Below, piece by piece: positions 42,245-59,871 of a stretch of 61,349 nt of DNA. Location: positions 1 through 61,349 of the IMG/VR virus record IMGVR_UViG_3300028383_000142. The stretch is one strand, 5' to 3'. Position 1 is the first letter of the stretch. Every line of letters begins with the position of its first letter. Under the pieces are notes generated by a model. It had not been told where the DNA came from, made no database searches, and saw only the letters and a program-made list of their open reading frames with translations. This DNA is from a virus. The position numbers and the translations under genes are program-made.

Positions 42245-42252
42245 TATTTATA
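42245..42252 (-). promoter_or_regulatory. T4-type late promoter box (leftward, for gp48 operon)
   Basis: Exact TATAAATA on the minus strand, overlapping the first base of gp4; predicted start about 42239. Together with the rightward box the two 5' leaders would overlap by about 18 bases. Confidence 0.75.
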
Positions 42253-42704
42253 TGCCAACATACAAAGGAAAATACAAAGTCAAGAACCGAGATAAGTATG
42301 TCGGGGATGTTGACAATGTTGTGTACCGATCACTGTGGGAGCGGAATGCTTTTCGATGGCTGGAGTCCAACTCAAATATCAAGGCTTGGGCTGCTGAAGA
42401 GGTAGTGGTGCCTTACCTGTGTGAGACAGATGGAAAAATACATCGGTACTTCCTAGACCTTTGGTTCAAGACCTCGGATGGTGAGACATACATCATCGAG
42501 ATCAAGCCCAAAAAAGAGACCGTACCACCCAAGAAACCCAAGCGGGGGGGCCGACAGCGACATCTGTCCGAGTCACTCACATACGTGAAGAATCAATCTA
42601 AGTGGAAAGCTGCACACCAGTTTGCTCAATCAAAAGGATGGCACTTCCAGATATGGACCGAGGACACTCTTCGTGAACTGGGGATCAAGATTCTCAAAGG
42701 GTGA
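42252..42704 (+). CDS. gp4: Head completion protein gp4
   Basis: 150 residues, the same length as T4 gp4. Motifs: YKGKYKVKNRDKYVGDVDNV, VYRSLWERNAFRWLE, YFLDLWFKTSDGETYIIEIK PK, KWKAAHQFAQSKGWHFQIWT EDTL. The E...D...EIK arrangement is that of a PD-(D/E)XK nuclease fold, in keeping with gp4/gp50 acting on packaged DNA ends before tail joining. First gene of the plus-strand block. Confidence 0.9.
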   Translation: MPTYKGKYKVKNRDKYVGDVDNVVYRSLWERNAFRWLESNSNIKAWAAEEVVVPYLCETDGKIHRYFLDLWFKTSDGETYIIEIKPKKETVPPKKPKRGGRQRHLSESLTYVKNQSKWKAAHQFAQSKGWHFQIWTEDTLRELGIKILKG

Positions 42705-51616: not shown

Positions 51617-52915
51617 TCAGATATTGTCTTCCTCACGGAACTCGGCGTCGATTCGCTTGGCAAGGGCGGCATGACCCCACTTTCCGTTACGGGTCGACGG
51701 CCCCTCGATCTCCTCGAAGGCGAACGCACGCCCGCGTATGCGCGAGAGGAACTCACCGGCAGCACGACCGTACCGACCCGACCCGACAACCTCTTTCTGG
51801 CGGTATGGCGGAAAGCCATCTTCGCGTTTTGAGGTACCGAGGAGGTACGCACTTTTTCCGCCAGCAGGGACGATGAGCACCGAATCCTGATCGGTCTTGA
51901 CGCCCATCTTAAACAGATCCTTCTCTAGTTCGCCACCGTCGGGTCCATCAACCTTATGGTTGCACACAAAGAATGACGGCTCGACCACTTCCTTGACATG
52001 ACGTTTTGGCTCGCCGCCATACTTGTCGGCCATTCGGGAGGCCATGTCCTGATCTGCAAACACCGATGCAATGTTTACCTTGTCAGTCCAGACGGGGTCA
52101 GACCCCGACTCCTGAAAAGACAGGTACAGGGTCTTACCTCGTTCATCTTTCGCGACGATGAACTTCTTGGTATTGGCGTTCTCGATGTAGTTACCTTCTA
52201 CCGCCGTGACAGAGTAACCCTTCCCGAGGAGGTACTGTTTGATCAGTCTATTCGCGGCGTTATTCTCGGATCGTGTTCGCTCGTCTCGATACCCAGAGAT
52301 AGCACCACATGTATGGGCCTGTACCTTGCGCCAGATACGCGAGAGAGACGATTCGTCAAGTACCTCAAGGTCTGGCTGGGCCTCGATCGTCGATTCAAAC
52401 AGTGTTCTGGCCCCACCGGTGTTCGTACCCTCTTCGAGTCCGTACCTCTGAATCTCACCGACTTCAAGGAGCTTGAGCCGGTCAGATCGCATCTCAAGGA
52501 TCCTGATTTCGGTCCCCCTCCCCATGATGCCCTCTTCGAGGAACGCATTGACCCAACTCTCGATCGTCTCTTTGGTTTTACGGTCAAGCGAATTGACGGT
52601 CACTGACCAGTACGTCGCCCTCTGAGAGTACTTACGCACGCGAATCCATCCACGAGTCAGTGCCATTGAAATCAATTCTTCTCGTGCGTCACCTTCCATG
52701 CCAACAGGCTCGCCATGCTTGCCGTAAATGCTCTGGATGACACTGTCAGACAAACCAAACTTAGACGGGTTGTCGATAATATCCTTTACATGAACAGACG
52801 ATGTACCGACCAACTCACCTTTTGGTGAAAGCCAGAACCCTGCTTTGTGGCCAAAACGACGCCCGGCGATATTGCCGGTAAACTTTTCTCCTAAGTATGT
52901 CTTAAAAGACTTCAT
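51617..52915 (-). CDS. Probable internal virion protein with capsid-targeting-like N-terminus
   Basis: 432 residues. It starts MKSFKTYLGEK, close to the capsid-targeting sequence of T4 internal proteins (MKTYQEFIAE-type) and ends in a gp21-like cleavage motif (LxE). Next come GFWLSPKGELVGTSSVHVKD IIDNPSKFG and ALTRGWIRVRKYSQRATYWS V, a domain recurring in large phages. The middle holds two cysteines (TCGAISGYRDERT). The C-terminal part is basic and glycine-rich (GSGRYGRAAGEFLSRIRGRA). If cut by the prohead protease it would be packed in the head and injected with DNA. Confidence 0.6.
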   Translation of the reverse strand: MKSFKTYLGEKFTGNIAGRRFGHKAGFWLSPKGELVGTSSVHVKDIIDNPSKFGLSDSVIQSIYGKHGEPVGMEGDAREELISMALTRGWIRVRKYSQRATYWSVTVNSLDRKTKETIESWVNAFLEEGIMGRGTEIRILEMRSDRLKLLEVGEIQRYGLEEGTNTGGARTLFESTIEAQPDLEVLDESSLSRIWRKVQAHTCGAISGYRDERTRSENNAANRLIKQYLLGKGYSVTAVEGNYIENANTKKFIVAKDERGKTLYLSFQESGSDPVWTDKVNIASVFADQDMASRMADKYGGEPKRHVKEVVEPSFFVCNHKVDGPDGGELEKDLFKMGVKTDQDSVLIVPAGGKSAYLLGTSKREDGFPPYRQKEVVGSGRYGRAAGEFLSRIRGRAFAFEEIEGPSTRNGKWGHAALAKRIDAEFREEDNI

Positions 52916-58212: not shown

Positions 58213-58825
58213 GGTGAACCACCTGTACATTGCTTTGCTGTGTATGTGACGTGGATACTAACATCCCACTCACTGTATGTATATGAAAGAGGGTACCCGG
58301 ATTGTCAGAAAAGATTACGTTCCAGTATTTGCGCCAGCATCGGGTGATCTGGGGTCGCACCCTCTGTTCTCTCAGATCCGCCCGTGCAATCGAGTCGGTC
58401 GTCGAAGCCATATTATCTGTCCAGAATGAATCGATACCCCACAGATGCACCGAGTCGCCGTGGCTGTGATATGCATCAAGGGCGTACAGTAGTCCGTGCT
58501 GTCCCGAGTTCATTGCCAAGTCCTTCGAGACTGATGGGTACCGGGTCAGATCCATCACACACTCGACAGGGTATTCTAGTAGATCTCGCCAGTGCGGGTC
58601 TCGCCGGTCACCATACTCGGCGGCTCGATCGGACAGTAGAACCGGGGCCGGGGGAATATGTCCTTTTAGCAGACACTTCATTGCCCTTACATCGATGAGG
58701 GACACGAAGTTCGGGCGGTACGCTCGGTCCGAGAAGTTACACCCAACAAACATATCGGTGTCTGGGTGATCATTCCGCTCAAACAACCTGATCGACGGTC
58801 CGTTACCCAAGATGTGGATGGCCAT
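58175..58825 (-). CDS. Rossmann-like protein, possibly glycan-modifying (DUF115-like)
   Basis: 216 residues. The opening IHILGNGPSIRLFE is a glycine-rich loop as in DUF115/MptE-like and some sialyltransferase-type proteins; MNSGQHGLLYALDAYHSHGD then SVHLWGIDSFW is the second conserved block. Such proteins act on sugars or nucleotides, but I cannot assign a reaction. It starts 18 bases after the tmRNA terminator T-run, with GGAGG before ATG, so it needs its own promoter or read-through. Confidence 0.5.
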   Translation of the reverse strand: MAIHILGNGPSIRLFERNDHPDTDMFVGCNFSDRAYRPNFVSLIDVRAMKCLLKGHIPPAPVLLSDRAAEYGDRRDPHWRDLLEYPVECVMDLTRYPSVSKDLAMNSGQHGLLYALDAYHSHGDSVHLWGIDSFWTDNMASTTDSIARADLREQRVRPQITRCWRKYWNVIFSDNPGTLFHIHTVSGMLVSTSHTQQSNVQVVHHDDDGCKRSARF

Positions 58826-58843
58826 TCTACAAATCCTCCAGAC

Positions 58844-58885
58844 AAAAAAATACCCGGTTCTTTGGGTAATAAGGAAGAACCGGGT
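58844..58885 (-). terminator. Rho-independent terminator of the tmRNA gene
   Basis: Minus strand: perfect 11-bp stem (58885-58875 with 58862-58852) around a 12-base loop, followed one base later by seven Ts (58850-58844). It ends the tmRNA transcript. Confidence 0.88.
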
Positions 58886-59090
58886 CGAAAAACCCCATCA
58901 GGCTCACGCGGCCTGAGTGTATACCTCATCGTTGGCAGGTATTAACGTTTGCAGATTTACGGTCTGGCTTACCGATTCTCCACGATGATTCGTCTGCCTC
59001 GTCGAAACCATGACGCTCCCATTGAAGTGGTGGAAGCGGCGGGAGTCGAACCCGCGTCCGAAACATCTCGCCATCGCTTCATCGAATTCT
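58886..59090 (-). ncRNA. ssrA: tmRNA (ssrA), circularly permuted two-piece type
   Basis: On the minus strand the acceptor piece comes first: GATGTTTCGGAC, T-arm GCGGG TTCGACT CCCGC, acceptor CGCTTCC, A, CCA ending at 59028. A seven-base spacer (59027-59021) follows, then the coding piece with GGGAGCG (59020-59014), which pairs fully with CGCTTCC (one G-U), and the classic TGGTTTCGACG. The tag frame (58936-58904) reads ANDEVYTQAA then TGA. CGATGA (59084-59079) can pair with TCATCG in the coding piece as helix 2. tmRNA with SmpB frees stalled ribosomes and tags the nascent chain. Ends are approximate; the terminator sits directly downstream. Permuted tmRNA is known from alphaproteobacteria and some cyanobacteria. 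Confidence 0.9.
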
Positions 59091-59222
59091 ATTTGTTTAT
59101 AAACACTCTAACGAACAATGGACCGACTCGATAGCTCTTATACGGATTACCGATGTTGAATCTGTACTCTCCCCACTGAAGTGGTGTACCCTTGCTCCAA
59201 CTTACCCAGCGCCAGTCCCAGT
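59091..59222 (-). other. Non-coding leader region upstream of tmRNA, with a second joint-like hairpin
   Basis: No gene seen. On the minus strand it has CACCACTTCAGTGGGGAG followed by AGATTCAAC, which resembles the CACCACTTCAATGGGAG ... GGTTTCGAC joint of the tmRNA. It also forms a CCAC/GTGG hairpin. A TTATAAACA near 59088-59096 could be a weak promoter. Possibly a degenerate partial copy. Confidence 0.35.
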
Positions 59223-59435
59223 TCATTCTTTGTCTTCAAGTTTTAATGAAGTAACTTTGTTCCCATATACACATATTTTCCAAAGTTGACCAATTTGAGC
59301 AAACTCGATCATTTGATGGCTATCAGATCCTTCATCCACCACAGAATTAATGCTAACTTGGTATTTTTCCAATAGGGTAGCCAATTCTGCTTGAAACTTT
59401 CGTGCTTGCCTTTCTCTTACTTCATTCATGCTCAT
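59223..59435 (-). CDS. Small AT-rich gene of unknown function (70 residues)
   Basis: 70 residues (MSMNEVRERQARKFQAELAT start, then EFAQIGQLWKICVYGNKVTS). Helical first half, beta second half. Clearly more AT-rich than neighbours and with different codon choice, so probably a recent arrival together with the next gene. No family recognised. Confidence 0.5.
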   Translation of the reverse strand: MSMNEVRERQARKFQAELATLLEKYQVSINSVVDEGSDSHQMIEFAQIGQLWKICVYGNKVTSLKLEDKE

Positions 59436-59642: not shown

Positions 59643-59771
59643 TTATCTCCTTTCATTCCACTTCATCAACTCAAGGAGTGTCCGAGTACAAGCCATGCAT
59701 TGCTCTTTCGACGCACGGGTTCCCAAGGTTACGGCCTTTGAGAAATAATCGGCCCCCGACCTCGCCGCCGG
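59643..59771 (-). pseudogene. Possible remnant of a small gene with CxxC motif
   Basis: A 42-codon frame between two stops reads ...ADYFSKAVTLGTRASKEQ then CMACTRTLLELMKWNERR, which looks protein-like and ends at TAA 59643. There is no ATG or GTG before residue 26 (an internal TTG is at codon 16). Upstream in the same frame, past a TAA (59774-59772), is MNPRYIIGPWL starting with GTG. Possibly one gene broken by a stop; may also be chance. Confidence 0.3.
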
Positions 59772-59871
59772 TTATAGCCACGGCCCGATGATGTACCGTG
59801 GGTTCACCGAATCGACCGAATGTCTCTACGCCGCTCGACCACTCCTTCAGTTGACGCTTTATTTATCAGCT

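Follow-up and report, generated by a model that had tools for sequence, protein, structure and literature searches.

The window, a 61,349-nt stretch of DNA corresponding to a 61-kb IMG/VR virus record with T4-like genes, carries a complete circularly permuted tmRNA gene on its minus strand at approximately 58844-59088, as detected by both ARAGORN and Rfam. ARAGORN called a permuted tmRNA at 58813-59120 (minus strand) with the tag ANDEVYTQAA. The Rfam covariance model RF04321 (tmRNA_permuted) matched at full length at 58904-59088 (minus strand), scoring 107.4 bits where the gathering cut-off is 47, with an E value of 5e-20. No permuted tmRNA was called by ARAGORN in 300 randomised whole windows (first-order Markov). 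Consistent with membership of RF04321, the acceptor piece is encoded 5' of the coding piece with a 7-nt spacer between them (ARAGORN class "Permuted"), the acceptor stem has the G3-U70 pair and CCA for alanylation, and the tag frame begins with the alanine resume codon GCC and ends in Ala-Ala, the third residue from the end being glutamine. The first-pass annotation had described a phage-encoded permuted tmRNA that has this tag, a 7-base spacer and a 7-base acceptor stem, and all of these are borne out by ARAGORN and RF04321.

All parts of the gene lie on the minus strand. The acceptor (tRNA-like 3') piece at 59028-59088, delimited by the RF04321 alignment and the ARAGORN 3' tRNA domain, contains the 5' side of the inter-piece helix, the T-arm GGACGCGGGUUCGACUCCCGCC, the acceptor strand CGCUUCC, and an encoded ACCA. 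It is followed by the spacer CUUCAAU (59021-59027, from the sequence and the ARAGORN domain boundaries), which is predicted to be removed on maturation. The coding piece at 58852-59020 (RF04321 and RF01850 alignments) starts with GGGAGCG, the 5' strand of the acceptor stem including G3 of G3-U70, and continues through a D-like domain, the 3' side of the inter-piece helix, the resume site, the tag frame, the stop-codon hairpin, and a last hairpin. The resume site matches the consensus, with A at -4 (ARAGORN). The tag frame GCC AAC GAU GAG GUA UAC ACU CAG GCC GCG UGA at 58904-58936 (ARAGORN) encodes ANDEVYTQAA, and its end lies in the stop-codon hairpin UCAGGC-CGCGUGA-GCCUGA (58898-58916), where the deviant Gln codon, CAG, is paired to a CUG lying downstream. 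The last hairpin, ACCCGGUUCUU-CCUUAUUACCCA-AAGAACCGGGU at 58852-58885, is supported by the RF01850 alignment, by its fold, and by 17 relatives sharing the loop motif. A U7 tract, with which it probably makes an intrinsic terminator, lies directly 3' of it at 58844-58850. A 45-aa ORF (59089-59226, minus strand) is context and not part of the gene; the last base of its stop codon lies one base ahead of the covariance model match.

The T4-like genes in the window include gp32, gp59, gp6 and other baseplate proteins, tape measure, and endolysin. The gp6 protein has its best relatives in the phages Melnitz, Mosig, and HTVC008M (36-38% identity), and gp32 is approximately 50% identical to cyanophage gp32. 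Relatives of gp59 were found at ten loci with only 29-42% identity; within the stretches examined by ARAGORN, one of the ten (L132) has a tmRNA. A search with the downstream 216-aa protein gave no close relatives of the phage in IMG/VR, and no sigma-70-like promoter was found directly before the tmRNA. Between the endolysin gene and the small ORFs preceding the tmRNA lies a strongly structured non-coding stretch (59660-59855, minus strand), which folds at -82.5 kcal/mol where shuffled sequences give -64.5 (z -4.7, 0 of 200) and has a long closing stem GUCAACU.GAAGGAGUG/CACUCCUU.GAGUUGAU. Rfam gave no match to it, and similar DNA was found neither in the phage collection nor, with an 18-mer, in IMG/VR; it possibly represents an unknown phage structured RNA. 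Elsewhere in the window, the T4-like tail gene region encodes a TnsA-like endonuclease N-terminal domain (42252-42704, plus strand; PF08722, 66 bits), and a 432-aa protein (51617-52915, minus strand) marginally matches PF23780, an S-adenosylmethionine lyase family, over 46 residues (28.8 bits, cut-off 28).

Conservation of the acceptor stem was assessed in permuted tmRNAs collected by pattern from IMG/VR, phage records, and bacterial genomes and parsed with ARAGORN. The stem of the window gene, GGGAGCG/CGCUUCC, is paired at 7 of 7 positions and has G3-U70. Among 81 non-identical permuted tmRNAs with an encoded ACCA (for IMG/VR, among the matches listed), 80 have a fully paired stem with compensatory changes, in 18 distinct combinations, compared with 8.6% when the arms of different genes are mixed; G3-U70 is kept in all 81. 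At acceptor positions 4-7, an average of 3.99 pairs form when both arms come from one gene, compared with 2.47 when they come from different genes. The acceptor stem is thus under real constraint, and the pairing noted in the window persists in its relatives.

The location 58886-59090 initially given for the gene is right, whereas its extent is too short, omitting the terminal hairpin (58885-58852) and the U-tract (58850-58844), both of which belong to the gene. The hairpin had been taken for a dedicated terminator. It does end in U7, but it is the conserved last tmRNA domain, and the RF01850 alignment runs through it. Beyond this domain the RF01850 consensus has a further, separate hairpin, which the window gene lacks. 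In a sample of 109 non-identical permuted tmRNA genes (for IMG/VR, among the matches listed), 18, counting the window gene, have the motif CCUURUNAYC within 110 nt of the tag. In 17 of the 18, GGGG occurs upstream of the motif and could pair with the loop CC(C) in a pseudoknot; in the window gene, a pseudoknot of this kind likely forms between the loop CCCA and the UGGGG that immediately follows the stop-codon hairpin. The arms of the last hairpin match better within genes (6.2) than between genes (3.9). A U-tract directly follows the last hairpin in the window gene and likewise, by reading, at locus L068. Because the last hairpin runs straight into the U-tract, CCUUAUUACCCA and its stem probably double as a tmRNA domain and a transcription terminator, and the window gene suggests that a terminal tmRNA hairpin is able to act in this way.

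We compared the window gene with three lineage models. The highest score was obtained with RF01850 (beta_tmRNA), 80.5 bits over the full length (cut-off 84, a shortfall of 3.5 bits), followed by RF01851 (cyano_tmRNA) with 55.7 bits (below the cut-off of 70) and RF01849 (alpha_tmRNA) with 30.8 bits over 71 nt only (below the cut-off of 50). The controls were sorted by lineage: the Accumulibacter and Dechloromonas genomes scored 237 and 231 bits with the beta model, Melnitz (106.7 bits), HTVC008M (83.8), and Mosig (67.6) each scored best with alpha, and the contig of locus L048 scored best with cyano (112 bits). Given this order of models and these controls, the window tmRNA is probably of the betaproteobacterial type, with a score below the RF01850 cut-off. 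Rhodocyclaceae/Accumulibacter and other Betaproteobacteria account for most of the 30 bacterial loci at which the T-arm/acceptor pattern of the gene was found, the remainder being three Stenotrophomonas and two titled Pseudomonadota only; none of the 30 is titled as an alphaproteobacterium. The alphaproteobacterial-like source proposed in the first-pass annotation is at odds with these results. Although the closest isolates by baseplate gp6 (Melnitz, Mosig, and HTVC008M) have alpha-type permuted tmRNAs, the alpha model covers only part of the gene whereas beta covers the whole, and the short spacer and 10-aa ANDE tag are Rhodocyclaceae-like. The lineage models and their calibration by controls contradict an alphaproteobacterial origin, and we regard an alpha-type gene as extremely improbable. 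The core of the window gene shares at most 63% identity with any other tmRNA fetched, and the resolution of a tmRNA tree on approximately 175 nt is too poor to name the nearest host.

With the tmRNA-borne alanine, the full tag would be AANDEVYTQAA, equal in length to E. coli AANDENYALAA and identical at 8 of 11 positions, with AAND and the Tyr at -5 kept. The QAA ending is the sole case among 69 distinct viral tags fetched, of which 36 end in LAA (for IMG/VR, among the matches listed). Approximately half of these 69 tags have other endings, including ALV, TLV, ATV, VAV, ATA, AAA, and KVA, many of them on cyanobacterial-type tmRNAs; this describes the viral set alone. A host with an identical tag was sought and rejected, the exact ANDEVYTQAA matching no record in genome_contigs or IMG/VR besides the window's own. 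The pairing of CAG with CUG in the stop-codon hairpin argues that QAA is probably not a sequencing or assembly error, and the ending looks real. In six genes the hairpin occurs at an identical register and its five pairs are all perfect, although the codon concerned differs (CAG, AUC, CUA, GCC). Across 81 distinct sequences, these 6 perfect cases compare with approximately 1.6 expected (2% of cross pairs), which is weakly above chance; the hairpin is conserved mainly within the compact 10-aa group, as support and not proof. RNA structure may thus also shape the CAG codon.

The unusual ending raises the question of whether tagged proteins meet a different fate, for example being spared from host ClpXP during infection. 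Its uniqueness among the viral tags, the matching CUG, and the restriction of the exact tag to a single record would fit such a change. However, in E. coli the last two alanines matter most for ClpXP and the residue before them modestly, and changing the Leu third from the end reportedly raises KM only modestly (PMC7652416). Since the main determinant, Ala-Ala-COO-, is kept in the QAA tag, a modest effect on proteolysis is expected. AAND and Tyr -5 are also retained, and the hairpin could account for the codon without selection on the peptide. By analogy with E. coli, weakened recognition by ClpX is plausible, with an effect that is probably modest. We therefore consider an altered fate of tagged proteins unlikely, and equally doubtful the broader proposal of a phage rescue RNA with a weaker degradation signal, its hairpin adjusted to QAA, that partly uncouples trans-translation from ClpXP. 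The tag nevertheless offers one clear natural variant for testing the extent to which phages tune their tags.

Taken together, the element is very probably a complete phage ssrA of the permuted betaproteobacterial type in a divergent T4-like phage, working through host SmpB and alanyl-tRNA synthetase (AlaRS). Alternatively, the gene could be a passenger, left over from a host ssrA that was acquired through imprecise excision or recombination and is now decaying; integration at tmRNA genes is common, and ssrA fragments occur in prophages (PMC9004378). Both pieces, all core elements, and the terminator are intact, however. The gene is also compact and distant from every bacterial ssrA fetched, which suggests that it has been kept over a long divergence. 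The genome is also T4-like, and no integrase-like protein was found among the window proteins scanned. A passenger is accordingly very unlikely, and the gene most likely functions as a phage ssrA with the host proteins. SmpB was not found within the window, and the tmRNA therefore probably relies on that of the host. However, the contig probably represents only a fragment of the phage genome, and SmpB could thus lie elsewhere in the phage.

What the analysis shows directly is the sequence of the gene with its structure signals, conservation, and type; the transcription, processing, charging, tagging, and benefit proposed here are predictions. The tmRNA is probably transcribed behind the 45-aa ORF, as part of a precursor co-transcribed behind the small upstream ORFs, with the U7 that follows the last hairpin as its end. 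RNase P and the 3' enzymes of the host's tRNA-processing machinery would excise the 7-nt spacer; the inter-piece helix and the acceptor stem would then keep the two pieces together. The molecule would be charged via G3-U70 by host AlaRS, and host SmpB would deliver it to stalled ribosomes, which would switch to the tag frame, add A+ANDEVYTQAA, and then release. The benefit would likely be sustained ribosome rescue when infection raises the load of truncated mRNA or host ssrA falls short.

Permuted tmRNAs were already known in dozens of phages. In 2022, a survey covering 18,146 genomes of phages reported tmRNA in 402, representing 133 unique structures; 53 of these, from isolates, were two-piece, of which 50 came from marine or aquatic phages, and roles for phage tmRNA were proposed (PMC9004378). 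Another study catalogued 79 bacteriophage tmRNA sequences and introduced RF04321 (PMC11915505). After our IMG/VR pattern scan, at least 99 tmRNAs, the majority of the permuted kind, were called across at least 120 loci among the matches listed. The suggestion that such genes are rare in phages is thus not upheld. Alcaligenes phage vB_Af_QDWS595 and Bordetella phage vB_BbrM_PHB04 resemble the window in having phage-borne permuted tmRNAs with 10-aa non-LAA tags (YAAAA, IRAAA), but they belong to other phage families and have spacers of 72-74 nt. In the records of vB_Af_QDWS595 (OK149171.2, tag ANDNVYAAAA), PHB04 (MF663786.1, tag ANDDYIRAAA), and Xanthomonas phage XacN1 (AP018399.1, tag ANANTFDYALAA, two copies), the places of the permuted tmRNAs are unannotated.

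Among bacterial genes, those of beta_tmRNA (RF01850; Accumulibacter, Dechloromonas) share with the window gene the permuted order, a short spacer (3-7 nt), 10-aa ANDE tag, and stop-codon hairpin, and several have the last-hairpin loop CCUURUUAYC in common with it. They are approximately 60% identical to it, have a separate terminator hairpin after the last hairpin, whereas in the window the conserved hairpin itself ends in U7, and their tags end in ALAA instead of TQAA. Rhodocyclaceae-type genes match it in architecture: their spacers measure 3-5 nt and most carry the 10-aa tag ANDERFALAA, close to the 7 nt and ANDEVYTQAA seen in the window; the cores of these genes and the window gene compare at 176 nt against 178. 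Among phages, Methylophilales phage Melnitz and Pelagibacter phages Mosig and HTVC008M are T4-like and aquatic, have permuted tmRNAs, and encode gp6 proteins related to that of the window. A glutamine riboswitch has been reported in Melnitz and Mosig (PMC9004378), whereas no riboswitch was matched by Rfam in the window. Their tmRNAs are of the alpha type with spacers of 44-142 nt, in contrast to the beta type and 7-nt spacer here. The window thus adds a probable beta-type permuted tmRNA to a T4-like group whose nearest isolates have the alpha type, which points to separate acquisitions or to ssrA exchange among related phages.
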